Of a stretch of DNA of 64,000 bases, positions 823 through 18,304 are shown piece after piece. The position numbers and the translations under genes were made by a program. The stretch is from assembly GCF_000092205.1 (NCBI RefSeq), contig NC_014216.1, positions 2,113,742 through 2,177,741 of the forward strand. Direction: 5' to 3'. Under the pieces are notes generated by a model that did not search any database, was not told where the DNA came from, and saw only the letters and a list, made by a program, of their open reading frames with translations. Source of the stretch: Desulfurivibrio alkaliphilus AHT 2. Its GTDB lineage: Bacteria; Desulfobacterota; Desulfobulbia; Desulfobulbales; Desulfurivibrionaceae. Position 1 is the stretch's first letter. Every line of letters begins with the position of its first letter.

Positions 823-835
823 CGTAAGCTTCCCC
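823..835. repeat. Solo IS3-element end (13 bases)
   Basis: CGTAAGCTTCCCC is identical to the terminal repeat of the IS3 element at 18391-18403. Here it has no element attached and abuts the glmS stump at 835. It may be a scar of an IS-mediated deletion, but a chance match cannot be ruled out at this length. Confidence 0.45.
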
Positions 836-872
836 TAATCCACGGTTACGCTTTTGGCCAGGTTGCGGGGCG
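835..872 (-). pseudogene. glmS: glmS 3' stump (last ~11 codons), copy A
   Basis: On the minus strand this reads [11 protein letters not shown] and a stop, the invariant C-terminus of glucosamine-fructose-6-phosphate aminotransferase. It is joined directly to the DNA just downstream of rmlC. The same join recurs at 11473-11510, and a longer stump of the same gene end is at 3493-3652. It is a deletion junction with no function of its own. Confidence 0.8.
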
Positions 873-895
873 TGCCTGCCTTGCTCCCTGCGTTC

Positions 896-1909
896 TCAAA
901 ACACCTGGGCGTTGCGCAACGGTACGCACTCCCGGTCTTTTGCGGAAAGCAGGGGCGCATCTTCATAGCCCCAGTCTATGCCGATATCCGGGTCATTCCA
1001 GGCTATGCAGCGTTCGTGTTCGGGGGCGTAAAAATCGGTGGTTTTGTAGAGGAACTCGGCGGTTGGCGTAAGGGTGAGGACGCCGTGGGCGAAACCTTCG
1101 GGTATCCATAACTGTCGCTTGTTGTCCGCCGAAAGCCGTTGGCCCACCCAGCGGCCGAAGGTGGGGGAGTTGTGGCGGATGTCCACCGCCACATCAAACA
1201 CCTCGCCCTGCACCACCCGCACCAGCTTGCCCTGGGCCTTCGGCGGCAACTGATAGTGAAGGCCGCGCAACACGCCCTTTTGTGATTTCGAGTGGTTATC
1301 CTGCACAAAATTCGGCCGCAGGCCGGTGGCCGCCTGGAAAATCTTTTCGTTCTTCAGCCCCTGCCGCCTTTCAAGGGTGGCAATGTAATGCCCCGCTTCC
1401 AGCAATGATTCATGGGTGCCGGTATCCAGCCAGGCATAACCCCGGCCCATGATCTCCACGGCCAGACTGCCCTGTTCCAGGTAGAGCCGGTTAAGATCGG
1501 TAATCTCCAACTCGCCCCGGGGCGAAGGTTTATTCTGCCTGGCCAACTCCACCACCTGGTGGTCGTAAAAATAGAGCCCGGTCACGGCATACCTGGATTT
1601 CGGCCGCTGCGGCTTCTCTTCCAGCGACAGCACCTTGCCGTCGGCGTCGAACTCGGCCACCCCGTATCGTTGGGGGTCGTTAACGTGGTAGGCAAAAATG
1701 GTGGCCCCGTGCTCCCGCCGCATGGCATTGGCAAGCAGCACGTGCAGATCATGACCATAGAAGATGTTGTCCCCCAGCACCAGGGCCGCAGGCTCACCGG
1801 CAAGAAACTGCTCGCCGATGATAAAAGCCTGGGCCAACCCGTCCGGGCTGGGTTGCACCGCGTATTGTAAATTGACCCCCCAGGCGCTGCCATCGCCGAG
1901 CAGTTTCTG
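896..1909 (-). pseudogene. rmlAC: rmlA'-'rmlC fusion, copy A, 5'-truncated
   Basis: Nearly identical to the copy at 11534-12739, but homology stops at about 1908, so the first ~67 residues of RmlA are lost, including the GGAGTRLHP nucleotide-binding loop. The frame is open upstream to 1960 through unrelated codons. What remains is RmlA from LLGDGSAWG through [11 protein letters not shown], fused in frame to RmlC from [10 protein letters not shown], including the catalytic LRGLHYQ segment. Without the sugar-nucleotide loop the thymidylyltransferase half cannot work. The epimerase half would lack its first ~35 residues even in the other copy. Between it and its former upstream partner rmlB (6945-7455) lie 5 kb of inserted genes. 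Confidence 0.85.
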
Positions 1910-1963
1910 ACCCCATTTCTCCCTGCAGTCACCCATGACCGGCACCGGGTGTCGCGCCAATCC

Positions 1964-3307
1964 TTAAAATATCGTTTGCGGGAGAGTGTCTTTTGTTACT
2001 CGACCACCTCGTTGATCACCAATGGTCGCGGCACAATACAGTGGGAGGAATTGGAGTTTCTGGTCGGATAGTTCGTTGCTCGTTCCGCCATAAAGGACCA
2101 ATCCTTGCGGACAATTATGATATTTTTCAAGCATAAGGTGCATGCTTCGCAGGCTCCCGCCGGCTCCGGATTTAACCTCTACCGGGTAAATATTTCCTTG
2201 CCGCACAACGAGAAAATCCACCTCGGCACTACTGCCACGGGCCTCCCGAGCCCAATAAAACAACTCTGATCCATGCCAGGCCAGCAGTTCCTGGGCAACA
2301 AATTGTTCCGCTAGTTTTCCACGGTACATGGCCAGAAGATTTTCCTGCTGTAATTCCAGTTCAACCGGCACCTGACAGAGTCTCTGCATAAGCCCTATGT
2401 CGAGCATGGATGCCTTGAATTTTTTTGGATTGGCAGTTGCGCCTAATGGCAATCCGCTTGGGTCACAGGCCGGAATTTTATGAATGACCTTCGCCTTGGC
2501 CAGCAGATCAAACGCTTTGTGATTCATCTGGCTTGAATGCCCATCATTGAGACGGGAATATTTTAATTGCTCTCCAATATGCTTTGCCACGCCCAAAAAA
2601 ACCGCATCCAGGCAGCTTGTGTTGATATGGGGGGTGTATTTGGAAAAGTCATCGCGATACGAGTCCAGAATCTCTGATTGAACTTGAAAGGTTTCAACCA
2701 TGGAACCGGTGTCACGATAGGTCTTGACACATTCAGGCATGCCGCCAACAAAGAAATAGCCCCGCAATTCCCCGAGAATGATTTCCTGGATAGACCGTGC
2801 AACATCATCCTGCTGACTCAGGGTGTATTCCGCCATCCGCTCTTTGCCCATTGCCAGCAGATATTCGTAAAATGTCATCGGATGCATGTGCAGATACTGA
2901 ACGCGACCGACCGGCACGGATATCTCGCCAAAGGCAAACTCCAGCAATGAACCGGCAGCAACAACATGGAGATCGGGCATCTCTTCATGAAAATAACGTA
3001 ATGCCATCAGTGCTCGCGGGCAGGCCTGAATCTCATCAAGGAAAACAAGCGTCTGACCGGGAATGATTCGACCGGCGGTCAATTCAAGATGGTTCAGTAA
3101 CGACCGAGGCTCAAGATTTTCAGAGAAATGCGGGTGCAGGTCGCGGCGTTTTTCCAGATCTATTTTGACAAAGCTCTTAAATTGTTTCGCGAGAACATTC
3201 TCGACAAGCCATGTTTTACCAACCTGGCGCGCTCCACGAATTATCAGCGGCTTACGACGCGGCGAATCTTTCCAGCCTGCAATCTGTTTTTCCGCCAATC
3301 GTTTCAT
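1964..3307 (-). CDS. AAA ATPase with C-terminal DUF4143
   Basis: A complete 447-residue protein of the common DUF4143 ATPase family. Walker A is GARQVGKT at about residues 25-32 and Walker B is LVFLDEIQ at about 87-95; a sensor-like AAGSLLEFA follows. The DUF4143 region runs from about residue 200 to the end and contains the nuclease-like VDFLVV..G..YPVEVKSG pattern (residues ~385-405). ATG 3307 is chosen over the in-frame ATG 3370 because an AAAGGAGA ribosome site lies just before it. The cellular role of the family is unknown. It often travels in accessory DNA, as here, where it splits a broken rml operon. Confidence 0.88.
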   Translation of the reverse strand: MKRLAEKQIAGWKDSPRRKPLIIRGARQVGKTWLVENVLAKQFKSFVKIDLEKRRDLHPHFSENLEPRSLLNHLELTAGRIIPGQTLVFLDEIQACPRALMALRYFHEEMPDLHVVAAGSLLEFAFGEISVPVGRVQYLHMHPMTFYEYLLAMGKERMAEYTLSQQDDVARSIQEIILGELRGYFFVGGMPECVKTYRDTGSMVETFQVQSEILDSYRDDFSKYTPHINTSCLDAVFLGVAKHIGEQLKYSRLNDGHSSQMNHKAFDLLAKAKVIHKIPACDPSGLPLGATANPKKFKASMLDIGLMQRLCQVPVELELQQENLLAMYRGKLAEQFVAQELLAWHGSELFYWAREARGSSAEVDFLVVRQGNIYPVEVKSGAGGSLRSMHLMLEKYHNCPQGLVLYGGTSNELSDQKLQFLPLYCAATIGDQRGGRVTKDTLPQTIF

Positions 3308-3492
3308 GCAAGATTCTCCTTTACGCCGGATGGTGTTGTAACAGAGTTTGAGCCAAATCAAACTGCACAATACGCCAGGTAATATAAAAAATCAAGGCTA
3401 TTTGGGCTTTTCCAGCGTTAAAAGTCGGGGTTTTAAACAGTGGGGAACAGTGGGGGGATGGACTGAAAGCGCCGGTCAAAGCCGGTAAAACC

Positions 3493-3652
3493 CTACTCCA
3501 CGGTTACGCTTTTGGCCAGGTTGCGGGGCATGTCCACGTCGTTGCCCAGGCGGGTGGCTACTTCCAGGGCCAGGAGTTGGACCGCCGTCAGCATGGTGAA
3601 GAATTCCAGCATGGGGTGGTCGTGGGCGGGGATGCGGATCAGGTCGAAAGAG
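3493..3652 (-). pseudogene. glmS: glmS 3' remnant (~53 codons)
   Basis: The minus strand encodes [19 protein letters not shown] through the C-terminal [11 protein letters not shown] and a stop, the end of glucosamine-6-phosphate synthase (isomerase domain). Only about 53 of ~610 codons are present. The upstream end abuts an Rpn-nuclease fragment on the opposite strand, so an internal chromosomal piece has been lost. It is the longest of three glmS tails in the window. Confidence 0.85.
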
Positions 3653-4206
3653 CTGTTCAGCTACCCGGAGTTTGTCCGGCAGCTTATCGAAGGCTTTACC
3701 TCGCCGGAGATTGCCCGGATCATGGATTTTTCCACCCTCAAACTGCATAGCGGTCATTACATAACGCCTTTTACCAGCACCTGCTGAAAACCGGGCAGGC
3801 CATCGAGCGGATTGTAGCCATTATCCAGGCGGACCCCAATCGTAAACGCATCGACAAACTGGTCACCCGCTGGCTCAAGCGGCACCTGCACCACTTGGGG
3901 GTGGATATCAACCTGGACAAGGTTAACAGCTTATTGGAGGACAAAGATATGCTGGCAGAAAACCTGGAAAACATGGTTAAAAGGGAACGGTCGAAAGGCC
4001 ACCGGAAAGGTATCAAGGAAGGCATGGCCCAAGGCGTTGCCCAAGGTACCAAGCAGACCCTGCGCAAGCTAATCCAGCTCAAATTCGGCTCCCTGCCTGG
4101 CTGGGCCGAAAAACGGATTGAGAAGGCCGGTGCGCAAAAACTGGAAGCCTGGACCGGAAACATTCTGCAAGCCAACAGCCTGGAAGAACTACTGGGTGAG
4201 CAATAA
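3653..4206 (+). pseudogene. Rpn/YhgA-like PD-(D/E)XK nuclease, broken
   Basis: The first part reads [30 protein letters not shown], the N-terminal motif of Rpn (transposase_31-like) proteins. It breaks near 3775-3790. The C-terminal part then continues in another frame (QAIERIVAIIQADPNRKRID, then the charged EGMAQGVAQGTKQTLRKLI tail and the DUF4351-like end SLEELLGEQ). The central nuclease core is missing, so it is a deletion remnant. It has lost its start to the glmS junction at 3652. Confidence 0.75.
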
Positions 4207-4210
4207 CCGG

Positions 4211-5289
4211 TTAATTCCCCGCTCCAGCAAACTCAGCCCTCGCCGCCAGGCCCGCCAAGCTCCGGCCACCGCTGTTTTCCTGCACCCACTGGGCGATGGG
4301 CTTTACCCGGTTGGGCCAGCTCAGGGTTTGCAGCAGTTCGGGGGTGGGCGGGGCGATGGGGGTGGGGTTTTGCAGCAGGCGGGCAACTTGGTTGGCCAGG
4401 TCGGCTTCGTCGCCTTTGCGGAAGTAGTGGAACTGGGGGCTGATCTCGGCCAGGTCGGCCAATGGGGCTACGTCGGAAAGCAATACTGGTTTGCCGTGGG
4501 CCAGGGCTTCCAGGGGTTTCATGGGGGTCACCAGCTCGCAGACCGCCAGCGGGCGGCGGGGAAGCACCACCAGGTCCAACAGATTGTAACAAGCCGTGGC
4601 GGCTTCCGGGGCCAGCCGGCCGGGCATTTGCAAATGCTCATCGGCCAGGCCATGGGAACGGGCCAACTCCCGGTAGGCGGTTTCAAGGGGCGCCTTGGCA
4701 TCCGGCGCCGATAAACCGGTTTTGTGGGAGGCCCCCACCAGCAACAGGGAAAGATCAACTCCCCGCCGACGCAGCGCCGCCACGGCCCGAATCAGCGCCT
4801 CCAGACCCTCGTATTCGTTGAAGGAGCCGACATAGCCAACCACATAACGACTGGTCAGCCCCAGGTCGGCACGGGTGGGAACACCCACGCGGGGAGCCGG
4901 GCCAACCTCAATGGCAGCGGCGTCGATACCGTTGGGCACCAGGGCTACCCGAGCTTCCTTCACTCCGCGCCGTAACAACTCCTGGCGCATTAAACGATTC
5001 AGGGTGAAAACCCGGTCCGCCCCCCGAGCCACCGCCGTTTCATGGGCCACCACCGCCTCAAACTCCGGCCCCGCACCCCACTCCGGCTCCCGCGAGGCCC
5101 GGCTGATCTCCCAGAAGCCGCGCACCTCATAAGCAAAGGGCAACCCCAACTCACGGGCGGCAATCCCGGCCGGCAAGGCGTTCTGCCAGTTGGATGCGGC
5201 CAGCACCACGGCGGGCTTGAACACCCGCAATACCGTTTTCAAGGCCTCGGCGGCGGCGGCCAGCCGGACCGCCAGGCTGCCGCCGCTTT
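4211..5289 (-). pseudogene. GT4 glycosyltransferase, N-terminally truncated by IS66
   Basis: About 360 residues of a GT-B glycosyltransferase (family 4). The donor-binding C-terminal half is intact: YVVGYVGSFNEYEGLEALI, LLVGAS, MPGRLAPEA, and the acidic pair in VTPMKPLEALAHGKPVL. The remaining N-terminal part has YEVRGFWEISRASREPEW, typical of transferases in exopolysaccharide loci. The reading frame starts at a TTG (5311) that lies inside the IS66 end, so the true N-terminus, perhaps 70-100 residues, is gone. It is not found on the far side of the element, which fits a deletion alongside the IS. Probably inactive. Confidence 0.8.
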
Positions 5290-5311
5290 GTAAGCGCTCA
5301 GCAAACCCCAA

Positions 5312-6451
5312 TCATTTGGCAACTACCAGGCTACGGTCAATATACTGGGGCAGCAGGGCTTTGATTTGCTCCCTGGTGCCGGCCGTCGGCAGCCGTTCAA
5401 ACAAGGTGCGCAGGTACCAATAGGGCTCCAGGCCGTTGGCTTTGGCCGTTTCGATAATACTGTAGATTGCGGCACTGGCCCTGGCGCCTTGGGGCGTGCC
5501 GGAGAAGAGCCAGTTCTTCCGGCCCACGACGAAGGGCCGGATGGCGTTTTCTGCCAAGTTGTTGTCCAGTCGCAGGAGTCCATGTTCAACGTAACGTTGC
5601 AATCTTTTCCATTGGCCCAAGGTATAGGCCATAGCCTTGCCCAGCAGGCTTTTGGGTGGTACTTCCCGCTGCCGGGCCAACAGCCACTGCCGGAAGTCGG
5701 CCAGCAGGGGCACCGCCTGCGCTTGCCGCTGCTGTTGGATTGCCTCTTGATCAAGCCCGGCCTCCCGCATGGCCGCCTCGATTTTGTACAATTTGCCGAT
5801 CCATTCCAGGGCCTCGCCGGCAATGCCGTCCCGCTTGGTTTTGCCGGCGGCCTTGAGGACGTCATTGAACTTGCGCCGGGCATGAGCCCAGCAATCGGCA
5901 TGGATCACCCCCGGCTGATGGTCGAGGAAGTCATAGCCGATGTAGCCGTCGGTCTGGACGCAGCCCCGGTAGCCCCGGAGAAAAACGGCGGCCGGATCGC
6001 CACTCCGGGTGGGCTGATACTGGAACACCAGGACCGGACGTTCGGGTGCACCGCCGCGAAAGACCCACATGTAGGACTTGGCTTTGGCGGCCCGGCCGAT
6101 TTCGGCCAGCACCTGGAGGGTGGTCTCGTCAACATTGACCACCGGTCCGGAACGAATCTCTTCCTGCATCAATTCCAACAGCGGTTCGCGCCGTTCGGCC
6201 ACCTTCATCGCCCAGCCGCACATGACGCCCCGGCCGATCTCCACCCCCAGCCGGGCGAACTGCCCTTCCTGGCGATAGAAAGGCAGGGCATCGGCGAATT
6301 TGGCGGTCAATACGTGGGCCAGCAGGCCGGGACTGGCGATACTTTTAGCAATCATCTGCTCCGGGGCCGGGGCGATGACCACAGTCGGCCCTTCATCTGC
6401 AACCCCTTCGCATTGCCGGCAGGCGTACTTGGGGCGGAGCGGGAGTCGAAG
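5312..6451 (-). pseudogene. tnpC: IS66 transposase TnpC, 5'-deleted
   Basis: About 380 residues. A zinc-finger remnant YACRQCEG near the front is followed by the IS66 transposase core with VNVDETTLQVL, TDGYIGYDFL, CWAHARRKF and LDNNLAENAIRPFVVGRKNW, then the usual C-terminal domain. Full TnpC proteins have ~510-530 residues, so the first ~130 are missing. The frame opens at 6451 right after an in-frame stop, with no good start codon except GTG 6382. The element is unlikely to move by itself. Confidence 0.85.
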
Positions 6452-6509
6452 TCATGCCGACAATGTAACCCATCTCCCTGAAACGTCAAGTAAATACTCT
6501 CCTGAAACG

Positions 6510-6713
6510 CTAAAAAATCCGGCTGTATTCCAGCTTTTTATGCGGCAGCTCAGTCGCCGGCCGATCCCTGAACTTGCGCCGCCACCAACCAAAGGCATGC
6601 CGGCTCAGACCGTACTCCCGGCAATACGCCGTCTGGGTCAGGCCGCTCCGCTCCCAAGCCGCCACATGGGCGGCCCAGAAACGCCGCTTGCTGCCCCTGC
6701 CGTTCTTGTCCAT
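6510..6713 (-). CDS. tnpA: IS66 accessory protein TnpA-like
   Basis: About 67 residues from ATG 6713, with an RFWAAHVAAWERSGLTQTAYCREYGLS helix-turn-helix that matches IS66 TnpA-type proteins. The C-terminus (PATELPHKKLEYSRIF) looks improvised and runs into the deletion that removed tnpB and the start of tnpC. Possibly truncated. Confidence 0.65.
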   Translation of the reverse strand: MDKNGRGSKRRFWAAHVAAWERSGLTQTAYCREYGLSRHAFGWWRRKFRDRPATELPHKKLEYSRIF

Positions 6714-6944
6714 GATCACCTCCTCGGGTAAAGTGCCGCCGAGAATATCCCGGCCGCCAACCAGGGGTGATATTGCCATGGCGGGGGAGGCAAAAAAAGA
6801 AGGGGTTCATTGAGCGCTTACGAAGAAAATAAGGCAGGATGAAGAGAGGTAATTTTTAGATAGGATTAAAGAAGATGGAGGGACGGCAAAATTGCTACAT
6901 TTTCAAACGGCCCATTTTAGTGCTCTTTCAGGTTGCCGCTGACA

Positions 6945-7455
6945 GCGTACCAGATGATCGCTGGCCGCCTTGCTGGCGGCATATGGGCTGTTGGGGGCAT
7001 ACGGGGTGGTTTCAAGTAAAGGGCGGATCGTCCGGGCTCAAGGTGCCATACACCTCGTCGGTGGAGACATGGAGAAAACGGAACTCTTCCCGCTCCACCC
7101 CGGCCAGCGTCTGCCAGTGCGCCCGCGCCGCCTCCAGCAACCGCAGGGTGCCCACCACGTTGGTCTGGACGAAGGCCTCCGGCCCGTGAATGGAACGATC
7201 CACATGGGATTCCGCCGCAAAATGGATCACCGCCCGGGGGCGATGCTCGGCAAAAAGCCGCTGCAACAGGGCCGCGTCGGTGATATCGCCATGGACAAAA
7301 TGGTAGGCGGAGGAGCCGGCCAGGGCTTGCAGGTTTTCCGGGTTACCGGCGTAGGTGAGGGCATCCAGGTTGACCACCGGTTCGCCGCCCTGGCCAAGCC
7401 ATTGCAGAATAAAATTGGCGCCGATGAAACCGGCGCCTCCGGTGATCAACAGCAT
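6945..7455 (-). pseudogene. rmlB: rmlB fragment, copy A
   Basis: The N-terminal ~165 residues of dTDP-glucose 4,6-dehydratase. Present are the NAD-binding GGAGFIGANFI, the HFAAESHVDRSI segment and the catalytic STDEVYG. After PPFT an extra base shifts the frame. The shifted frame continues [23 protein letters not shown] and then stops matching at about 6945, so the C-terminal half is gone. Residue identity to the intact rmlB at 13629-14711 is only moderate (roughly two thirds by eye), unlike the near-identical epimerase and ugd genes beside it. Confidence 0.85.
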
Positions 7456-7473
7456 TTCCCCGCCCCCAATCTG

Positions 7474-8246
7474 TTAAACCCCGTAATATTCCCGGTACCA
7501 GGCGGCAAAACGACCAATGCCCTCTTGCACTGTGGTGCCGGGCTGGTAGCTGAAATCGCGCACCAGGTCGGCGACATCGGCAAAGGTATCCGGCACGTCG
7601 CCGGGTTGCAGGGGCAGCATTTCCTTTTGAGCCGTCTTGCCCAGGGCCTTTTCCAGGGTCTCGACATACTCCATCAGCTCCACCTGCCGGTTGTTGCCGA
7701 TGTTGTACACCCGCCAGGGCGCAGTGCTGCTGCCGGGATCGGGGTTGTCGCCGGACCACTCCGGGTTGGGGGCCGCCGGCTTGTCCAGCACCCGCACCAC
7801 TCCTTCGATGATGTCGTCGATAAAGGTGAAATCTCGCCGGTGCTTGCCGTAGTTGAAGATTTTGATCGATTCGCCGGCCATGATCGCCCGGGTGAATTTG
7901 GCTAAAGCCATGTCCGGACGGTCCCAGGGGCCGTAAACCGTAAAAAAGCGCAGACCTGCGGATTTTCAATGGAATAGCGCACCCCGGCTTGGGCCGCCAG
8001 GTTCACCACCCGCCGGGGCTGGTGCACGGCAAAAACCTCTGCCACCGCCGCCTTATCGGCCAGGTCGACACGGCAATGGGTATAGCCGGGATGATCGGCA
8101 TGGCGTGCCAGCCGAGCCTCCTTGAGCGACGGGTCGTAGTAGTCGTTGTGATTGTCGATTCCCACCACTTGGTCCCCGCGGGCCAGCAACCGCAAAGACA
8201 GGGCGGAACCGATGAAGCCGGCGGCGCCGGTGATCAGCACTTTCAT
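7474..8246 (-). pseudogene. UDP-glucuronate 4-epimerase-like, internal deletion, copy A
   Basis: The N-terminal part (MKVLITGAAGFIGSALSLR through VRYSIENPQ) is the NAD-binding start of an extended SDR epimerase of the CapI/UDP-glucuronate 4-epimerase type. The C-terminal part resumes at [20 protein letters not shown] but in another frame, and runs on through [20 protein letters not shown] to the end. Around 75-80 residues are missing, including the catalytic S/T and YxxxK. The gene cannot give an active enzyme unless there are two interacting fragments, which is unlikely. The copy at 14729-15501 has exactly the same deletion. Its 3' neighbour was rmlB and its 5' neighbour is ugd (4-base overlap). 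Confidence 0.85.
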
Positions 8247-9487
8247 TTTATAGCTCCCTGCAACCGTCCAACCCCAATGTAGGTAAACCCCGCCTCCCGC
8301 ATCATGACCGGCTCGTAAACATTACGCAGGTCGATAAACAGCGGCTGGGCCATCAATGCCCGCAATCGTTGCAGGTCCAAGGCCCGGTACTGGTTCCATT
8401 CGGTCATCAGGATCAGGGCGTCGGCGCCGGTGGCGACGGCATAGGGGTCGTCCAGGTAGCGGCATTCCGGCATTATTTTGGCGGCCTCGCCCATCCCCTG
8501 GGGGTCGTGTACTTGCAGCGCCGCCCCCTTCTCCGACAGGGCGGGCAGAATGGTTAATGCCGGCGCCTCGCGCAGGTCATCGGTTTCCGGCTTGAAGGTC
8601 AGCCCCAGCACGCCGATGGTTTTGCCGGCCTCGCTGCCGCCCAGGGCGTCGCGGATTTTCTTGATCATTCGCCCCTTCTGGGCCGCGTTCACCTCCACCG
8701 CCGCCTCTACCATACGGCTGGTGCTGCCATGTTCCTGGGCAATGCGCAGCAGGGCCAGGGTATCTTTGGGAAAACAGGAGCCGCCGTAGCCGGGGCCGGG
8801 ATGCAGAAACTTGCCGCCGATCCGGCCATCCAGCCCCACCGCCTTGGCCAGGGGCTTAACGTCCGCCCCCACAGCCTCGCAGAGATTGGCCATCTCGTTA
8901 ATGAAACTGATCTTCATGGCTAAAAAGGCGTTGGCGGCATACTTGATCAACTCGGCGGTTTCCAGGGTGGTTTCGACAATGGGAGTGCCGTTAAGATACA
9001 GGGGGTTGTAAATCTCCCGCATCACATCAAATGCCCGCTGACTGCCGCTGCCCACCACCACCCGATCCGGACGCATGAAATCGCTGATTGCCGCCCCTTC
9101 CCGCAGAAACTCCGGGTTGGAAACCATATCGAAAACCGCCCGGGGGTTGGCCTTGGCAATCAACCGCTGCACCTGGCGGGCGGTACCGACCGGCACCGTG
9201 CTTTTGTCGATGACCACCGTATAGTCCTGAACCAGATTGGCGGCAATTTCCTCCGCCGCCTGATAAACATAGCTTAAATCGGCATAACCGTTACCCCGCC
9301 GCACACTGGGGGTACCCACGGCAACAAAGACCGCCCGGGCACCAGCCATGGCTTCGGCCAGGTCGGTGGTGAAGGAAAGCCGACCCTGCTCCACATTCCT
9401 GGCCACCAGATCATCCAGACCCGGCTCGTAAATGGGAATCCCGCCCTGGCGCAAAAAGTCGATCCGCTCCGCCAGCTTGTCCATGCA
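8243..9487 (-). pseudogene. ugd: UDP-glucose 6-dehydrogenase, 5'-truncated, copy A
   Basis: Matches the intact ugd at 15498-16823 at about 98% of residues from VVCMDKLAERIDFLRQG onward. Differences are few (for example GGIPIY/GSIPIY, AMKIS/AVKIS). The first ~28 residues with the GTGYVGLVSG NAD loop are replaced by an out-of-register scrap of manC (frame open to 9607). The catalytic GGSCFPKDT cysteine and the C-terminal domain remain, but loss of the dinucleotide loop makes activity very unlikely. Confidence 0.85.
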
Positions 9488-9493
9488 GACTAC

Positions 9494-9590
9494 AAGGTGA
9501 ATTCGTTTTCGCTTACCAGATAGCTCTCGTCGCCTTTGGTCACCTTGGCCGTTCCGGAAACCACAATCCAGTGTTCGGCCACCATTACCG
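9494..9590 (-). pseudogene. manC: manC fragment joined to ugd
   Basis: About 97 bases related (~88% by eye) to the cupin part of manC at 17035-17122, encoding [26 protein letters not shown]. Just upstream the text switches to GTAATGGTGGCCGA, which in manC lies ~200 bases away. The fragment therefore carries an internal deletion at a shared GGCCGA as well as the deletion that joined it to ugd. It shows that copy A once had the manC-ugd order of copy B. Confidence 0.75.
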
Positions 9591-9603
9591 CCGAAGCGTG
9601 CCT

Positions 9604-11163
9604 TCAAAATTTGAACAGTTCGGTATGTGAATTTATCTTGCTTGGAATCTGCGTGAAACTGGGAGTTTCATTGATCACATCGCCTCCAAGCAGATAGATG
9701 CCGGGGAGCCTGGCAAAGAGAAAGATGTTGAAAAAGTCCGATATCTCTTGCAATTCCGGTTGACGGGTTGCGTCAAGGACGATTTCCCCTAGCTTTCTTT
9801 CATTAGCCGGAAAAAGTTGGGGTGTTGAGATTTCAACAGCCCATACGTACGACGGCATTACTTTCGCCAGGGCCAGGGGCAGTGCCTGGTCCTCCCTCTC
9901 ACCTTCCCAGTCGGTTAACGACTGCAGGTGGTCCGTATACTCGGTCACCGATGCGGCTTGGGCGCGAAAGACAATTTGCTGTTTCATCGCCCATTGGATA
10001 AGGCGATTAATCCATTTGTTCCCTTTGCTCAGGGTCGAGAGTGCCGAATACAGGATATCCAAGGCGATGGCCTCGGCTTTCACTCCGCTATAGCGGATAC
10101 CTGGTCGGAACAGCTCCACGACGTAATCCACCTTGTCGTGCTCGATATAGAGCCGGGGAATGCAGAAGTTGGGACCAAAGTTGTCATCATGACCGATGAA
10201 GCTGCTGGTCCAACTCTCGCTCGGCACATAGCCAGCGGTCTCCCCGATGCGAAAATAGGAAATCTCGGCATCCGGAACCCAGGTGTCCTTGTTGAAGGTA
10301 TGGCCGTAAAAGGGAATAATGTGTTTTGCTTCGTATTGCAACTCCTGGCCAGTCAGGCGAAAACCGACCAGAGCGCCGCACCCTGATTCCAGGCCGGCGT
10401 AAGCATATTTCTGGTATGGTAGCTCACGGCGGCGATCATTTTGGTCCTGGCTATAATCGATATCGCTGTATTCAATGCCCAATCCAGCCAAGATCGCTCT
10501 GATTTGCGGCACACTCAGCCCCTGAGCAGGCTCAAAAGCTGGATTAACTTGTTCGGCCAGTTTATTGATCCGCCGGTAGGAGATGTCTCCTTCAAGCAAA
10601 CATCTGGATATCAGGCTGCGCAGTGCCACCTGGGCGCACGCCTTGTTCAATCCATTTTGTTGGCAGTAAAGGATGCCGGTAATGATCAGTGACGTGGAAC
10701 CAACCACCAGACGGTATTGGCCGGCGCGTGGAACACAGTTGTGCTCATGTGCATATTTGACGAATACAGCCTCGAAGACATGCCACTGGGCGATCGACCG
10801 AGACGGTACAGAGTCGAACTTGAGAATGGCGTAACCGACCAGATTTTCCTGATTGAGATGAGGGTGTGCTTTGGCCGACAATTCGACATTCCAGAACGAA
10901 AGTCGTAGCAGCCCGTCATTGCGATGGTCAGGATACCTGGCCAGAATGTCTTCATTTTCTTCAGTGATGATTCCTGCTACCGGAATAGTTTCAACAATAA
11001 GCGTCTGGCAGGAAAATGAGCGGGCCAAGGAAAAAAGGCGCCGGATGCTGTTGGTTTCGCCAAAACGTTTTTCGACGAAATCGAAGGACGAGAAAGGCGA
11101 CTCCAACTGAAAATATTCCAGGTCGCTACTTGATACGCAGCGGTGGTCATCCAGCAACGTCAT
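9604..11163 (-). CDS. Unknown 519-aa protein, cysteine-peptidase-like core
   Basis: A family I do not recognise by name. Residues ~160-200 read YCQQNGLNKACAQVALRSL. A glutamine several residues before a cysteine on a helix that continues AxxAL is the pattern of papain/C39-like peptidases. A candidate histidine/acid pair follows in EAKHIIPFYGHTFNKDTW (residues ~300-320). The rest has no clear domain; no signal peptide or membrane segment is seen. Its start (ATG 11163) shares one base with the stop of a 59-aa gene, so the two are translationally coupled. Base use is AT-richer than the flanking sugar-nucleotide genes, which suggests transfer. Function unknown; peptidase activity is an inference from motif spacing only. 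Confidence 0.6.
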   Translation of the reverse strand: MTLLDDHRCVSSSDLEYFQLESPFSSFDFVEKRFGETNSIRRLFSLARSFSCQTLIVETIPVAGIITEENEDILARYPDHRNDGLLRLSFWNVELSAKAHPHLNQENLVGYAILKFDSVPSRSIAQWHVFEAVFVKYAHEHNCVPRAGQYRLVVGSTSLIITGILYCQQNGLNKACAQVALRSLISRCLLEGDISYRRINKLAEQVNPAFEPAQGLSVPQIRAILAGLGIEYSDIDYSQDQNDRRRELPYQKYAYAGLESGCGALVGFRLTGQELQYEAKHIIPFYGHTFNKDTWVPDAEISYFRIGETAGYVPSESWTSSFIGHDDNFGPNFCIPRLYIEHDKVDYVVELFRPGIRYSGVKAEAIALDILYSALSTLSKGNKWINRLIQWAMKQQIVFRAQAASVTEYTDHLQSLTDWEGEREDQALPLALAKVMPSYVWAVEISTPQLFPANERKLGEIVLDATRQPELQEISDFFNIFLFARLPGIYLLGGDVINETPSFTQIPSKINSHTELFKF

Positions 11164-11342
11164 CAGCCGAAAGTCAACTCGCTCTCGGCCGCTTTGCGGT
11201 GGGCCTCATCAATCTTGTTGAGAAAATCCCGCACCTCCTTAGTATAACGCATCTTGACCTTCACGGTTTCCTGCGTTGTACCGAATTGAGAGGCGATTTC
11301 TTTTGCAAGATCAGCGTTTCCGAACGTGCCTTGCGTTTTCAT
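11163..11342 (-). CDS. 59-aa protein coupled to the peptidase-like gene
   Basis: ATG 11342 follows a strong AGGAGG and opens a frame of 59 residues: MKTQGTFGNADLAKEIASQF, then TTQETVKVKMRYTKEVRDFL, then a charged helix ending AAESELTFG. The first part looks like a short helix-turn-helix or helical bundle; no cysteines, signal or membrane segment. The stop codon overlaps the start of the 519-aa gene by one base. It could be a substrate, regulator or antitoxin-like partner of that protein; the sequence does not decide. Confidence 0.65.
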   Translation of the reverse strand: MKTQGTFGNADLAKEIASQFGTTQETVKVKMRYTKEVRDFLNKIDEAHRKAAESELTFG

Positions 11343-11472
11343 TACGGGTTCCTCCTGAGTTGTGTAACGCCATCATTCTGTGTCAAAACACTATCCGAAC
11401 CCGGCAACGATTGCAATGACAAAGCGTTGCTGGGCTAGCTTGAAAAACAGGAAAATTGTTCCTCCCGCAACG

Positions 11473-11510
11473 CTACTCCACGGTTACGCTTTTGGCCAGG
11501 TTGCGGGGCG
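11473..11510 (-). pseudogene. glmS: glmS 3' stump, copy B
   Basis: The same last codons of glmS ([11 protein letters not shown], stop) joined to the same position downstream of rmlC as at 835-872. The identical join in both copies shows that the deletion between rmlC and glmS happened before the module was duplicated. Confidence 0.8.
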
Positions 11511-11533
11511 TGCCTGGCCTGCTCCCTGCGTTC

Positions 11534-12739
11534 TCAAAAAACCTCGGCGTTGCAAAGCGGTACGCACTCCCGGTCTTTTGTGGAAAGCAGGGGGGGATCT
11601 TCATAGCCCCAGTCTATGCCTATATCCGGGTCGTTCCAGGCTATGCAGCGTTCGTGTTCGGGGGCGTAAAAGTCGGTGGTTTTGTAGAGGAACTCGGCGG
11701 TTGGCGTAAGGGTGAGGACGCCGTGGGCGAAACCTTCGGGTATCCATAACTGTCGCTTGTTGTCCGCCGAAAGCCGTTGGCCCACCCAGCGGCCGAAGGT
11801 GGGGGAGTTGTGGCGGATGTCCACCGCCACATCGAACACCTCGCCCTGCACCACCCGCACCAGCTTGCCCTGGGCCTTCGGCGGCAACTGATAGTGAAGG
11901 CCGCGCAACACGCCCTTTTGTGATTTCGAGTGGTTATCCTGCACAAAATTCGGCCGCAGGCCGGTGGCCGCCTGGAAAATCTTTTCGTTCTTCAGCCCCT
12001 GCCGCCTTTCAAGGGTGGCAATGTAATGCCCCGCTTCCAGCAATGATTCATGGGTGCCGGTATCCAGCCAGGCATAACCCCGGCCCATGATCTCCACGGC
12101 CAGACTGCCCTGTTCCAGGTAGAGCCGGTTAAGATCGGTAATCTCCAACTCGCCCCGGGGCGAAGGTTTATTCTGCCTGGCCAACTCCACCACCTGGTGG
12201 TCGTAAAAATAGAGCCCGGTCACGGCATACCTGGATTTCGGCCGCTGCGGCTTCTCTTCCAGCGACAGCACCTTGCCGTCGGCGTCGAACTCGGCCACCC
12301 CGTATCGTTGGGGGTCGTTAACGTGGTAGGCAAAAATGGTGGCCCCGTGCTCCCGCCGCATGGCATTGGCAAGCAGCACGTGCAGATCATGACCATAGAA
12401 GATGTTGTCCCCCAGCACCAAAGCCGCAGGCTCACCGGCAAGAAACTGCTCGCCGATAATAAATGCCTGGGCCAACCCCTCCGGGCTGGGTTGCACCGCG
12501 TATTGCAAATTGATCCCCCAGGCGCTGCCATCGCCGAGCAGTTGCTGAAAACGGGGCGTATCCTGGGGGGTGGAGATAATCAGAATATCGCGGATACCGG
12601 CGAACATCAGGGTCGATAGCGGGTAATAGATCATCGGCTTATCGAACACCGGCAGCAATTGTTTGGAAACAGACAGGGTCGCGGGGTGCAGCCGGGTGCC
12701 GGCCCCGCCGGCTAGAACAATACCTTTGCGGGTAATCAT
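11534..12739 (-). CDS. rmlAC: RmlA-RmlC fusion protein (thymidylyltransferase + epimerase, both trimmed)
   Basis: 401 residues. Residues 1-250 are glucose-1-phosphate thymidylyltransferase, with [34 protein letters not shown] and [11 protein letters not shown]. Residues 251-401 are dTDP-4-dehydrorhamnose 3,5-epimerase, with [17 protein letters not shown] and [14 protein letters not shown] normal RmlA has ~290 residues and RmlC ~180, so the join removed ~40 C-terminal residues of RmlA and ~35 N-terminal residues of RmlC while keeping the frame. The start is ATG 12739, which overlaps the rmlD stop (ATGA). Catalytic residues visible in each half are kept, so partial activity is possible; loss of the RmlA C-terminal helices and the RmlC N-terminal strands argues against it. 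Both copies in the window have the same fusion. Confidence 0.8.
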
Positions 12740-13632
12740 GATTCGATCAACTCCTTCAGGGTGCGTTGCACATGAAACTGCCAAGGTGGCATCACCAGGC
12801 CGAAGGCCGCCTCCAAACGGCGGCAATCAAGCCGGGAATTTTTCGGGCGCTTGGCCGGCAACGGATACGCTTCCGTCGGGATCGGCTCGATCTGCTCCGG
12901 CTTGACCAATAAAGGCCGGCCCAGGGCGGCAGCCTCGGCGACAATGAACCGGGCATAACCGTGCCACGAGGTCTCCCCGGCCGCCGTGCAATGGTAAAGA
13001 CCGCCGCCGGCCTTGCCGCCAAGCATCAGCCGCAGGGCATGGGCGGTGATATCCGCCAGCAGCTCCGCCGAGGTTGGCGCCCCAACCTGATCGGCGATTA
13101 CGCGCAACTGATCGCGCTCCCCGGCCAGGCGCAACATGGTTCTGAGAAAATTGCCGCCACGGGCGGCATAAACCCAGGTGGTGCGCAAAATCAGGTGTTC
13201 CACCCCGGATGCGATAATCGCCGCATCCCCCTCCAGCTTACTGCGACCGTAAACGGATTGGGGATCGGGCGCATCGCTTTCCAGGTAAGGCCCGGCTTTG
13301 TCGCCATTGTAAACATAGTCGGTTGAAAAATGGACCAGCGGTACCCCAATCGCCTTGGCCTCCGCCGCCATTGCCGCCGGGACCGCGGCATTAACCGCGT
13401 ATGCCGTTTCGGCCTCGTCTTCGGCCTTATCCACGGCCGTATAGGCCCCGGCATTGACCACGGCAGCAGGTCGCCCGGCGGCGCGGATCGCCGCCCGCAC
13501 CGCCTCCCGGTCGGACAGATCAACCTCCCGCCGGGTCAAGGCCAGCACCGGCCCCAAGACCGCCAAACTGCGTTGCAGCTCCCAGCCGACCTGGCCTTCA
13601 GCACCAAAAAGCAGCAAGGGCCGGTCCATCAT
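12736..13632 (-). CDS. rmlD: dTDP-4-dehydrorhamnose reductase RmlD
   Basis: About 298 residues, full length. It makes the last step to dTDP-L-rhamnose, reducing dTDP-4-keto-rhamnose with NAD(P)H. Seen are the Rossmann start [15 protein letters not shown], the [12 protein letters not shown] segment, the catalytic [10 protein letters not shown] with downstream YGRSKLEGD (YxxxK), and [13 protein letters not shown]. The start is the ATGATG at 13632/13629, overlapping the rmlB stop. It lies between rmlB and the rmlA-rmlC fusion, all overlapping, so one transcript is expected. There is no counterpart in copy A. Confidence 0.93.
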
Positions 13633-14711
13633 GCCCGCTCCTGGTAATTGCGGTCCACCCATTCCCGGTAGGCGCCGCTGGTTACATTATCCACCCAGCC
13701 CTGGTGGTCGAGGTACCACTGCACGGTTTTGCGGATGCCGGTGGCAAAGCTTTCCGCCGGCTTCCAACCCAGCTCCCGCTCGATCTTGCCGGCATCAATG
13801 GCATAGCGCCGGTCGTGGCCGGGCCGATCGGGCACATGGGTCATCTGGGCCGAGTAAGAACGGCCGTCCGCCCGGGGCCGCAACTCGTCGAGCAGGGCGC
13901 AGATGGCTTCAACCACCTGGAGGTTGGTCAATTCATTATGGCCGCCAACGTTATAGACCTCCCCCACCCGGCCGGCCTGCAACACCCGGCGAATGGCCCG
14001 GCAATGATCGCCCACATAAAGCCAGTCTCGAACCTGAAGGCCATCGCCGTAAATGGGCAGGGGCTGGCCGGCCAGGGCATTGTGGATTACCAGGGGGATC
14101 AGCTTTTCCGGGAACTGATAGGGGCCGTAATTGTTGGAGCAATTGGTGGTCAGCACCGGCAGACCGTAGGTGTGGTGCCAGGCCCGAACCAGATGATCAC
14201 TGGCCGCCTTGCTGGCCGAGTAGGGGCTGTTGGGCTGGTAGGGGTGATTTTCGGTGAAGGGCGGCTCGGCCGGAGCCAAGGAACCGTAAACCTCATCGGT
14301 GGAGATATGCAGAAACCGAAACTCCCCTCTCCCCACGGGAGAGGGGCCGGGGGTGAGGGGCAGCCCGCCCCAATAGTCCCGCACCACCTCCAGAAGGCGG
14401 GAGGTACCGGCCACATTGGTTTCAATAAAAGCCGCCGGGCCATGAATGGAACGATCAACATGGGATTCCGCGGCAAAGTTGATCACCGCCCGGGGCCGGT
14501 GCCGGGCCAGCAGCCCGGCAACCAGTTCCGCATCCCCGATATCTCCATGCACAAACCGGTACCGGGGATCATCAGCAACCCCGGCCAGGTTCTCCCGGTT
14601 GCCGGCATAGGTAAGCTTGTCGAGGTTGAGGACTGGTTCGCCCTCTTCCGCCAGCCAGTCCAGAATGAAATTGGCACCGATGAAGCCGGCGCCGCCGGTT
14701 ACCAGTATCAA
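13629..14711 (-). CDS. rmlB: dTDP-glucose 4,6-dehydratase RmlB
   Basis: 360 residues, complete. It converts dTDP-glucose to the 4-keto-6-deoxy sugar. Motifs: VTGGAGFIGANFI (NAD loop), NFAAESHVDRSI, the catalytic STDEVYGS (T, D, E) and [12 protein letters not shown] (YxxxK), NCSNNYGPYQFPEK. Between residues ~120 and 133 an extra LPLTPGPSPVGRGE is encoded by a palindromic repeat (14324-14346) that is absent from the copy A fragment and from ordinary RmlB. The insertion sits in a surface loop before the catalytic strand and keeps the frame, so the enzyme may tolerate it. Confidence 0.93.
   Translation of the reverse strand: MILVTGGAGFIGANFILDWLAEEGEPVLNLDKLTYAGNRENLAGVADDPRYRFVHGDIGDAELVAGLLARHRPRAVINFAAESHVDRSIHGPAAFIETNVAGTSRLLEVVRDYWGGLPLTPGPSPVGRGEFRFLHISTDEVYGSLAPAEPPFTENHPYQPNSPYSASKAASDHLVRAWHHTYGLPVLTTNCSNNYGPYQFPEKLIPLVIHNALAGQPLPIYGDGLQVRDWLYVGDHCRAIRRVLQAGRVGEVYNVGGHNELTNLQVVEAICALLDELRPRADGRSYSAQMTHVPDRPGHDRRYAIDAGKIERELGWKPAESFATGIRKTVQWYLDHQGWVDNVTSGAYREWVDRNYQERA
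14324..14346. repeat. Palindromic REP-like insert inside rmlB
   Basis: CCCCTCTCCC, loop CAC, GGGAGAGGGG: a perfect 10-base stem within a ~40-base stretch that also has GGGGTGAGGGG. It is translated as part of TPGPSPVGRGE. Peptides of this kind are known products of repetitive palindromes inserted into coding sequence in many proteobacteria. Confidence 0.7.
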
Positions 14712-14728
14712 AATCCTGCCCCCCCTGA

Positions 14729-15501
14729 TTAACCCCCGTAATATTCCCGGTACCAGGCGGTAAAACGACCAATGCCCTCCTGCACCGTGGTGCCGGGCTG
14801 GTAGTTGAAATCGCGCACCAAGTCGGTTACATCGGCAAAGGTGTCCGGCACGTCGCCGGGTTGTAGGGGGAGAAACTCTTTTTGGGCCGTCTTACCCAGG
14901 GCCTTTTCCAGGGTCTCGACGTACTCCATCAGCTCCACCTGCCGGTTGTTGCCGATGTTGTACACCCGCCAGGGCGCAGTGCTGCTGCCGGGATCGGGGT
15001 TGTCGCCGGACCACTCCGGGTTGGGAGCCGCCGGCCGGTCCAGCACCCGCACCACTCCTTCGATGATGTCGTCGATAAAGGTAAAATCCCGCCGGTGCTT
15101 GCCGTAGTTGAAGATTTTGATCGGCTCACCGGCCATGATCGCCCGGGTGAACTTGGCCAAAGCCATGTCCGGCCGGTCCCAGGGGCCGTAAACCGTAAAA
15201 AAGCGCAGACCTGCGGATTTTCAATGGAATAGCGCACCCCGGCTTGGGCCGCCAGGTTCACCACCCGCCGGGGCTGGTGCACGGCAAAAACCTCTGCCAC
15301 CGCCGCCTTATCGGCCAGGTCGATGCGGCAATGGGTGTAGCCGGGATGATCGGCATGGCGGGCCAGCCGAGCCTCCTTGAGCGACGGGTCGTAGTAGTCG
15401 TTGTGATTGTCGATTCCCACCACTTGGTCCCCGCGGGCCAGCAACCGCAAAGACAGGGCGGAACCGATGAAGCCGGCGGCGCCGGTGATCAGCACTTTCA
15501 T
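14729..15501 (-). pseudogene. UDP-glucuronate 4-epimerase-like, same internal deletion, copy B
   Basis: Same length (773 bases) and same break as 7474-8246: the front half through VRYSIENPQ, then a frame change to [11 protein letters not shown] and the C-terminal half. Nucleotide differences from copy A are scattered and few. The missing ~75-80 residues include the Tyr-Lys catalytic pair. If repaired, the enzyme would turn UDP-glucuronate from ugd into UDP-galacturonate. It overlaps ugd by 4 bases (ATGA) and is followed 17 bases later by rmlB. Confidence 0.85.
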
Positions 15502-16823
15502 TTTATAGCTCCCTGCAACCGTCCAACCCCAATGTAGGTAAACCCCGCCTCCCGCATCATGACCGGCTCGTAAACATTACGCAGGTCGATAAACAGCGGC
15601 TGGGCCATCAACTCCCGCAATCGTTGCAGGTCCAAGGCCCGGTACTGGTTCCATTCGGTCATCAGGATCAGGGCGTCGGCGCCGGTGGCGACGGCATAGG
15701 GGTCGTCCAGGTAGCGGCATTCCGGCATTATTTTGGCGGCCTCGCGCATCCCCTGGGGGTCGTGTACTTGCAGCGCCGCCCCCTTCTCCGACAGGGCGGG
15801 CAGAATGGTTAATGCCGGCGCCTCGCGCAGGTCATCGGTTTCCGGCTTGAAGGTCAGCCCCAGCACGCCGATGGTTTTGCCGGCCTCGCTGCCGCCCAGG
15901 GCGTCGCGGATTTTCTTGATCATTCGCCCCTTCTGGGCCGCGTTCACCTCCACCGCCGCCTCAACCAGGCGGCTGGTGCTGCCGTGTTCCTGGGCGATAC
16001 GCAATAACGCCAAGGTATCCTTGGGAAAACAGGAGCCGCCGTAGCCGGGGCCGGGATGAAGAAACTTGCCGCCGATCCGGCCATCCAGCCCCACCGCCTT
16101 GGCCAGGGGCTTGACGTCGGCCCCCACCGCCTCGCAGAGATTGGCCATTTCATTGATAAAGCTGATCTTCACAGCCAAAAAGGCGTTGGCGGCATACTTG
16201 ATCAACTCGGCGGTTTCCAGGGTGGTTTCGACAATGGGAGTGCCGTTAAGATACAGGGGGTTGTAAATCTCCCGCATCACATCAAATGCCCGCTGACTGC
16301 CGCTGCCCACCACCACCCGATCCGGACGCATGAAATCGCTGATTGCCGCCCCTTCCCGCAGAAACTCCGGGTTGGAAACCATATCGAAAACCGCCCGGGG
16401 GTTGGCCTTGGCAATCAACCGCTGCACCTGGCGGGCGGTACCGACCGGCACCGTGCTTTTGTCGATGACCACCGTATAGTCCTGAACCAGATTGGCGGCA
16501 ATTTCCTCCGCCGCCTGGTAAACATAGCTTAAATCGGCATAACCGTTGCCCCGCCGCACACTGGGGGTGCCCACGGCAACAAAAATCGCCCGGGCATCGG
16601 CCATGGCTTCGGCCAGGTCGGTGGTGAAGGAAAGCCGACCCTGCTCCACATTCCTGGCCACCAGATCATCCAGGCCCGGCTCGTAAATGGGAATACTACC
16701 CTGGCGCAAAAAGTCGATCCGCTCCGCCAGCTTGTCCATGCAAACCACCCGGTGGCCGAATTCCGCCAGACAAGCACCGCTGACCAGGCCGACGTAGCCG
16801 GTACCTACTACTGCTATTTTCAT
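15498..16823 (-). CDS. ugd: UDP-glucose 6-dehydrogenase
   Basis: 441 residues, complete. It oxidises UDP-glucose to UDP-glucuronate with two NAD+. Seen are MKIAVVGTGYVGLVSGACLA (NAD loop), KSTVPVGTA, NPEFLREGAAI, the central-domain ETAELIKYAANAFLA, the catalytic GYGGSCFPKDT and the C-terminal GLTFKPETDDLREAPAL. It is the intact version of the truncated gene at 8243-9487. Downstream, the epimerase that would use its product is broken; upstream (75 bases) is manC. Confidence 0.95.
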   Translation of the reverse strand: MKIAVVGTGYVGLVSGACLAEFGHRVVCMDKLAERIDFLRQGSIPIYEPGLDDLVARNVEQGRLSFTTDLAEAMADARAIFVAVGTPSVRRGNGYADLSYVYQAAEEIAANLVQDYTVVIDKSTVPVGTARQVQRLIAKANPRAVFDMVSNPEFLREGAAISDFMRPDRVVVGSGSQRAFDVMREIYNPLYLNGTPIVETTLETAELIKYAANAFLAVKISFINEMANLCEAVGADVKPLAKAVGLDGRIGGKFLHPGPGYGGSCFPKDTLALLRIAQEHGSTSRLVEAAVEVNAAQKGRMIKKIRDALGGSEAGKTIGVLGLTFKPETDDLREAPALTILPALSEKGAALQVHDPQGMREAAKIMPECRYLDDPYAVATGADALILMTEWNQYRALDLQRLRELMAQPLFIDLRNVYEPVMMREAGFTYIGVGRLQGAIK

Positions 16824-16897
16824 ATCTACCCCTGATAGTTACCTGTTTTCAGTTTACCTTTAAATCAACAAGTTAGTGCCTCAAGCAAACGGCTGCT

Positions 16898-18304
16898 TCA
16901 GGCCCGCCCGTACCGGTCTTCAATGCGGACAATATCATCTTCGCCCAGGTAGGAGCCGGATTGCACCTCGATCAGCTCCAGGGGGATGGCGCCGGGGTTT
17001 TCCAGGCTGTGGACCTGGCCCAGGGGGATGAAGGTGGATTCGTTCTCGCTGACCAGATAGCTCTCGTCACCTTTGGTCACCTTGGCCGTACCTGAAACTA
17101 CGATCCAGTGTTCGGCCCGGTGGTGGTGCATTTGCAGCGACAGCCGGGCACCGGGTTTCACTTTAATCCTTTTCACCTGGTAACGGCCGCCGATATCGAT
17201 GCTGTCGTACGAACCCCAGGGGCGGAACACCTCGCGGTGGGTGATGTGCTCGCCACGCTCGGCGGTGGCCAGGGCCTCCACCAGAGCCTTCACCTCCTGA
17301 GCCCGCCGGCGGTCGGCCACCATTACCGCGTCCTTGGTTTCCACCACCACCAGATCACGCACCCCGAAGGTGGCCAGCAGGCGGCTTTGGGCCATCAGCA
17401 GGCAATCGCGGGTGTCGCGGGCAAGCACATCGCCGTCGCAGACATTGCCCTGCCCGTCGCGGGGCGCCGTCTCCCACAGAGCGGACCAGGAACCAAGATC
17501 GCACCAGCCCGCGTCCAACGGCACCAGGGCCGCCTCCTCGGTCTTTTCCATCACCGCGTAATCGATGGAATCGGCGGGGCAAGCCAAAAAATCCTCCCTG
17601 CTTACCCGGATGAAATGCAGATCGTGCATTTTGCCGGCCAGTGCCGCCCGGCAGGCCGCCACCATTGCCGGCTGAAACAGTTCCAACTCGGCCAGGTAAC
17701 GACCGGCCCGGAACATGAACATGCCGCTGTTCCAGTAATAATCGCCGGCAGCCAGGTAATCCTCGGCGGTGGCGGCATCGGGTTTTTCCACGAAACGGCG
17801 CACGGCAAAACCGGCGCCGGTCAACTCCTCACCCCGCTGAATATAACCGTAACCGGTTTCCGGCGACTGGGGCACAATGCCGAAGGTAACCAGCTTGCCC
17901 GCCTCGGCCAAGGCCAGCCCCTGTCGCACCCCGGCCTGAAAGGCGGCCACATCGCCGATCCGGTGATCAGCCGCCAGCACCAGCAACACCGGGTCGTCGC
18001 CCTCTTCCAGCAAATGCAGGGCCGCCAGGGCAATGGCCGGGGCGGTATTGCGCCCCTCCGGCTCCAGCAGAATGGGCACCTCCTCCAACCCCAGTTGGCG
18101 CAACTGTTCGGCAGCCAAAAAGCGGTGCTCCTCGTTGCACAGCAACAAGGGCTTGTCCACCGGCAGCCCTGCCAGTCGCCGAACCGTGGCCTGCAACATG
18201 GTCAGTTCATCACCGAAGTTGTGAAACTGTTTGGGATAAAGCTTGCGCGAAAGCGGCCATAAACGGGTACCGGAGCCTCCGGCCATAATCACGGGAATCA
18301 GCAT
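16898..18304 (-). CDS. manC: Mannose-1-phosphate guanylyltransferase / mannose-6-phosphate isomerase
   Basis: 468 residues, the usual length of the two-domain enzyme. The N-terminal pyrophosphorylase has [40 protein letters not shown] and FVEKPD..TAEDYL. The C-terminal cupin (residues ~350-465) has [29 protein letters not shown] and the metal-site ending [21 protein letters not shown] of type II isomerases. It supplies GDP-mannose for the glycan and is probably the first gene of the copy B operon. A scrap of a second manC is at 9494-9590. Confidence 0.95.

Follow-up and report, generated by a model that had tools for sequence, protein, structure and literature searches.

A predicted papain-like peptidase and its obligatory small partner form a scattered gene pair that tends to lie in defence islands

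A compact operon in the genome of Desulfurivibrio alkaliphilus AHT 2, flanked on either side by a copy of a sugar-nucleotide segment, consists of the gene of a 59-aa protein followed by that of a 519-aa protein. What kind of module do these two proteins form? The operon was analysed within a stretch of 64,000 nucleotides (NC_014216.1, positions 2,113,742 to 2,177,741), here called the window. A sequence-only reading had placed two open reading frames here, of 59 aa and 519 aa, and both exist, at 11163-11342 and 9604-11163 on the minus strand. The features of the locus are the following:

9604..11163, minus strand: gene of the predicted 519-aa papain/C39-like cysteine peptidase (ORF call, alignments, model and fold comparison), with an N-terminal domain (residues ~1-137), a peptidase core (~138-354) and a C-terminal alpha/beta domain (~355-519)
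11163..11342, minus strand: gene of the obligatory small partner, 59 aa (ORF call, conservation, profile scan)
11349..11356, minus strand: Shine-Dalgarno region (AGGAGG) ahead of the small gene (sequence)
11161..11165, minus strand: TGATG stop/start overlap coupling the small and the large gene (sequence)
~9581..11470, no strand assigned: unique segment in which the pair lies, an insertion between two sugar-nucleotide segment copies (self-comparison)
11469..11509, minus strand: glmS 3'-end repeat bordering the pair on its upstream side, with further copies near 833-871 and 3489-3529

The start region of the small gene, read on the minus strand, is CTCAGGAGGAACCCGTAATG, with a perfect AGGAGG spaced 8 nt from the ATG. 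The junction of the two genes on the same strand is GGCTGATGACG, where the stop and start codons overlap by one base, the shared A of TGATG. The strong ribosome site and the coupling of the genes that had been claimed for the pair are therefore both present. The GC percentage of the pair is 51%, as opposed to ~62% on both flanks, which makes it compositionally foreign, again as had been suggested. Its position between two sugar-nucleotide copies was also borne out by self-comparison: 835-1910 matches 11473-12548 (97.9%), 6946-9487 matches 14185-16742 (91%) and 9494-9580 matches 17031-17117 (91%), and between them remains a unique stretch, ~9581-11470, which the pair occupies. Some 20 bases after the stop codon of the peptidase gene the downstream segment copy begins, inside a truncated fragment of a mannose-1-phosphate guanylyltransferase gene (named by eye). 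Given its low GC percentage and its place in a unique stretch between the segment copies, the pair seems to have been acquired and to lie where recombination joined the DNA.

No credible match to the 519-aa protein itself was found among the Pfam, NCBIfam, PADLOC and PHROG models, and a sequence search of the PDB with the window proteins returned nothing credible either. Among its divergent relatives, two exceed the cut-off of 24 for Pfam Peptidase_C39_2 (L025, 26.5; L077, 24.7) and one falls below it (L027, 22.1). The AlphaFold model of the protein is good overall (pLDDT 81.6, pTM 0.85); its confidence is low at residues 287-337, that is, in the active-site loops, and this was counted against the explanation preferred below. 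When the model was compared with known structures using VIA-align, nearly all leading matches, over residues ~138-354, were papain-like. They include staphopain C (Z 9.6; solved staphopain structures 9.0-9.6, with prostaphopain also leading), the phytochelatin synthase Alr0975 (8.7), PeiR (8.0), the C39 domains of ComA and PCAT1 (~7.4-8.0), papain-like CDI toxins (7.1) and UfSP/ZUFSP deconjugases (UfSP ~7). Foldseek alone gave weak matches in the PDB (E 0.02 at best) and in the viral library.

These Z values are moderate, and conservation is the stronger argument for a papain-type peptidase. In an alignment of 28 members, which reaches down to ~20% identity, only R87, F90, G110, Q169, C176, H281, G287, D326 and D327 are invariant. 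Among these, Q169, C176, H281 and D326/D327 make up the predicted papain-type catalytic set of oxyanion Gln, nucleophile Cys, base His and Asp, so that both the Gln-Cys-His-Asp/Asn order and the papain fold by which papain-like (clan CA) peptidases are recognised were found. The sequence-only reading had proposed a papain/C39-type Cys-His site, and the peptidase type stands, on the grounds of these residues, the fold and the Peptidase_C39_2 matches of relatives. Its choice of the His in HTFNKDTW has to be given up, since members of the plasmid clade have another residue at this position (H288); H281, seven residues earlier in HIIPFYG, is the His that never varies. Outside the core, conservation is seen in the invariant R87/F90/G110 of the N-terminal domain and in a W441/E444 motif of the C-terminal one. 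The idea that these two domains are duplicates of each other received no support from profile comparison. The sequence contains no hydrophobic stretch of transmembrane strength, which was counted in favour of an intracellular module. It is very probable that the large protein is a papain-like peptidase paired with an obligatory small partner.

Evidence for the small partner comes from the relatives of the pair. Retention of the 59-aa frame beside homologues had been set as a test by the sequence-only reading, and all 18 testable clade-a loci, i.e., those with enough upstream sequence, have a homologue of the small ORF ahead of the large gene (locus L006 lies at the very end of its contig). A search with a profile built from the small protein detected it in the genomes of 18 of 20 relatives, with E ~1e-18 or better and always at the pair; the same search revealed no second strong copy elsewhere in these 20 genomes. 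In close relatives pS of the small gene is 0.52-0.89 and pN 0.09-0.22, values that point to a real gene under strong purifying selection. Conservation of the 59-aa frame upstream in 18 of 18 testable clade-a relatives, with pN well below pS, is more than chance would give. The identities of the small and large proteins are correlated (Mantel r 0.83, p 0.0001), which argues for their co-evolution.

The 59-aa protein has two predicted helices (residues 10-19 and 34-53) followed by a C-terminal SxLxF tail, and it is not hydrophobic. Modelled alone it is weak (pTM 0.37), which likewise was counted against the preferred explanation. Across the clades the small proteins share little sequence, and those that can be aligned have a helix and then SxLxF, or something like it, at the C-terminus; in loci L007 and L013 the partner carries six extra residues beyond this tail. 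No double-glycine leader was seen in the partner. Matches of the small protein to sigma-70 region 4 and near_KaiC (E 0.004-0.1) were below the cut-off and taken as chance.

When genome contigs were scanned, the large protein proved to have 20 relatives, most of them 42-70% identical to it (L022, 25%), in bins assigned to deltaproteobacterial groups, Desulforudis, Verrucomicrobia, Lentisphaerae, Fibrobacteres, Phycisphaerae and Dehalococcoidia. The pair has relatives in bins from at least six phyla. It is rare and patchy, being present in 5 of the 395 genomes of its own phylum and in none of 26 family relatives. The genome of the window has a second, distant copy of 490 aa (L002/L055) shortly after an HsdR gene, and a YgjP-like ORF, read by eye, lies between the two. 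With this paralogue as the query, tblastn retrieved four plasmid members (22-26% identity) from Mesorhizobium, Hymenobacter, Shewanella and Pseudomonas, each with an annotated CDS of 52-60 aa directly upstream. The distant clades are partly carried on conjugative plasmids; the plasmid search found no relatives of the window protein itself. Further members from the Verrucomicrobia group have either an upstream ORF of 58-74 aa or the arrangement of clade b (L055, L083-L085), where an ORF of 56-60 aa follows 4-20 bases downstream of the peptidase gene. Several copies are frameshifted or truncated (L016, L022/L026, L056). No relatives were found in viral contigs or phage records, so in these collections this is not a phage-borne gene; the absence of matches there and in PADLOC also weighed against the explanation preferred below.

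The neighbours of the pair were compared with the PADLOC models, and at least 8 of the 19 clade-a loci (L003-L021) adjoin a recognisable known defence system. These and other loci of the family have the following neighbours:

L003: DrmMI/type IIG methyltransferase (DISARM/IIG-like) beside the pair
L005: REase_I (type I RM)
L007: AbiEi/AbiEii
L009: pair between HmaB and HmaC
L012: AbiLi/AbiLii beside the pair
L018: ZacA beside the pair
L019: BrxL and PglZ (BREX) beside the pair
L020: IetS (IetAS) beside the pair
L055 (clade b), 4669-10276: after HsdR of a type I restriction system, with a 57-60-aa partner downstream
L085 (clade b), 6656-9444: between HsdS and HsdR, with a 57-60-aa partner downstream
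L056: truncated pair after HmaB-Fic-HmaC
L074, 7560-9732, and L077, 2683-5031: multiubiquitin protein, ThiF E1 and DUF6527/E2-E-like gene directly beside the pair
L075: beside a caspase-family gene
L076: beside a TrlF ATPase matching Ppl
L082: AbiE nearby

Type I MTase, SoFic, WYL and ZacB also appear in the pooled tally of clade-a neighbours. At 1e-10, the pooled neighbours matched 248 PADLOC families, as opposed to 50 for an equally large control set of proteins taken from arbitrary parts of these genomes; most matches in the control were generic ATPases. Taking one or two control loci as positive, Fisher's p for defence adjacency is 0.008-0.026, which is an estimate because the control was tallied pooled and its positives per locus were assumed. 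The pair tends to sit in defence islands. Approximately half of the loci have housekeeping neighbours, including the window with its flanking sugar-nucleotide genes, and this too was counted against the preferred explanation. The earlier suggestion of a "peptide-processing, defence or toxin module" can be retained, with the neighbourhood evidence favouring defence or toxin-antitoxin. Near the Zac genes upstream of the pair in L018, a 695-aa protein (2461-4545) with an N-terminal asparaginase-like domain (Pfam PF00710) is unusual company in a defence cluster. The plasmids of L074 and L077 are unrelated and differ in the relative orientation of the genes, and a ubiquitin-like link of that clade is possible. 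An obligatory link to multiubiquitin systems was rejected: Multi_ubiq lies beside only these two plasmid members, and neither the window genome nor most of the others contain it.

We tentatively propose, with a probability of about 0.4, that the pair is a mobile peptidase-effector module restrained by its 55-60-aa partner in the style of toxin-antitoxin or abortive-infection systems. The layout of type II toxin-antitoxin systems is found in the two-gene operon, the small partner coming first, the translational coupling and the obligatory co-occurrence; clade b, with the small gene second, departs from this order. An intracellular papain-fold (C39-like) peptidase and its dedicated partner would then move horizontally as a two-gene module. 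The partner, whose gene has the strong ribosome site and is translated first, in coupling with that of the peptidase, might fold onto the enzyme through its C-terminal helix and an SxLxF strand and so block its activity. The complex would break when a phage infects the cell or the element is lost, and the freed peptidase would cut an essential host or phage protein and so stop the infection.

Like Peptidase_C39_2 (PF13529) and the C39 domains of ComA and PCAT1, the window protein has the papain fold and the Gln-Cys-His-Asp set, but it has no Pfam match of its own and no ABC transporter, and it possesses two extra conserved regions flanking the core as well as the obligatory 59-aa partner. The best match among solved structures, staphopain with staphostatin (PDB 1pxv, 1y4h), likewise joins a papain-like peptidase to a dedicated small protein inhibitor, the role that the partner here may have. 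Staphopains, however, are secreted and only 7-11% identical to the window protein. Staphostatins are beta-barrels of ~105 aa, whereas the partner here has 59 aa and is predicted to be helical. In papain-like CDI toxin/immunity pairs (PDB 9l5u, 8ssm) and Tox-PL polymorphic toxins (PMC3482391) the papain-like core acts as a toxin with a neutralising partner; there it is a domain of secreted proteins, whereas no delivery domain was found here, and the partner gene of our pair comes first and is far smaller. AbiE, IetAS and similar two-gene modules share with it the compact operon, the patchiness and the defence islands, and even adjoin it, but the PADLOC models include no papain-like effector that has a 55-60-aa partner (PADLOC-DB 2.0.0: neither protein matches any family at E up to 1, and the divergent relatives match none).

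C39 domains in general mature short peptides, and the 59-aa protein might accordingly be a substrate, trimmed or cut by the peptidase (e.g., near SxLxF) to release an active peptide serving as a signal, toxin or tag. The fold matches, including ComA and PCAT1 bound to leader peptides, the conserved SxLxF tail and the six residues beyond it in L007 and L013 agree with this, but the partner has no double-glycine leader and is not hydrophobic, no ABC transporter or export gene is consistently adjacent, and inhibitors too look like such dedicated pairs; we consider a substrate role rather unlikely. Double-glycine bacteriocin processing in particular was rejected, as no transporter is fused or consistently adjacent and the partner has no GG leader. 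That the partner is itself a peptide modifier, whose SxLxF tail the papain-like enzyme recognises in order to mature, attach or remove it on targets during phage infection, in a ubiquitin/Pup-like manner, seems very improbable.

Placement of the pair between HmaB and HmaC, or, for clade b, behind HsdR or with HsdS and HsdR on its two sides, suits an accessory regulator, with the peptidase cleaving a restriction, BREX or Hma subunit or a ubiquitin-like conjugate as an on/off switch and the small protein acting as its adaptor. The two plasmid members beside multiubiquitin, ThiF E1 and DUF6527 genes and the UfSP/ZUFSP deconjugases among the fold matches point the same way. Against this, the window genome has no Multi_ubiq gene, and the neighbouring systems all differ and are missing from about half of the loci, so there is no single dedicated client, and such a role is also somewhat improbable. 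The ordinary neighbours at many loci, and the recombination junction with glmS-end repeats at which the window copy lies, would fit a housekeeping or metabolic peptidase pair without any conflict role, linked to defence through shared variable, horizontally acquired regions. The patchy spread over many phyla in ~1% of genomes, the broken copies (L016, L022/L026, L056), a turnover typical of conflict genes, and the repeated placement inside defence operons speak against it and make it doubtful.

No described papain-like or C39 defence pair was found in literature searches that covered an open-access library. An effector with a small antidote in a defence island is a known kind of system; this effector family and its partner are not in the models tested. 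With the pair, a peptidase family that has no name so far comes into view, widely scattered, located in defence islands and always accompanied by a micro-partner. Should our preferred reading of a restrained peptidase effector be true, a papain-type protease effector would operate in bacterial immunity under the control of a 55-60-aa protein, and its tiny companion would represent a natural inhibitor or substrate of a papain fold.

In the DNA around the pair, the sugar-nucleotide operon (rmlA/C, rmlB, galE-like, UDP-glucose dehydrogenase) forms a large tandem segmental duplication (835-1910, 6946-9487, 11473-12548, 14185-17117), of which the copy at ~835-9600 is partly truncated. One UDP-glucose dehydrogenase copy lacks its N-terminus and abuts a mannose-1-phosphate guanylyltransferase fragment. 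Three extra glmS 3' ends (833-871, 3489-3529, 11469-11509), one of them part of a longer glmS remnant, edge duplicated and inserted segments, and the real glmS is located elsewhere in the genome (G000:C1 ~2761150). The glmS 3' end is the attTn7-type site, and the extra ends are possibly attachment-site scars of glmS-targeting elements. Finally, at 11534-12826 and 896-1960, apparently in both duplicates, RmlA and a truncated C-terminal part resembling RmlC form an in-frame fusion.
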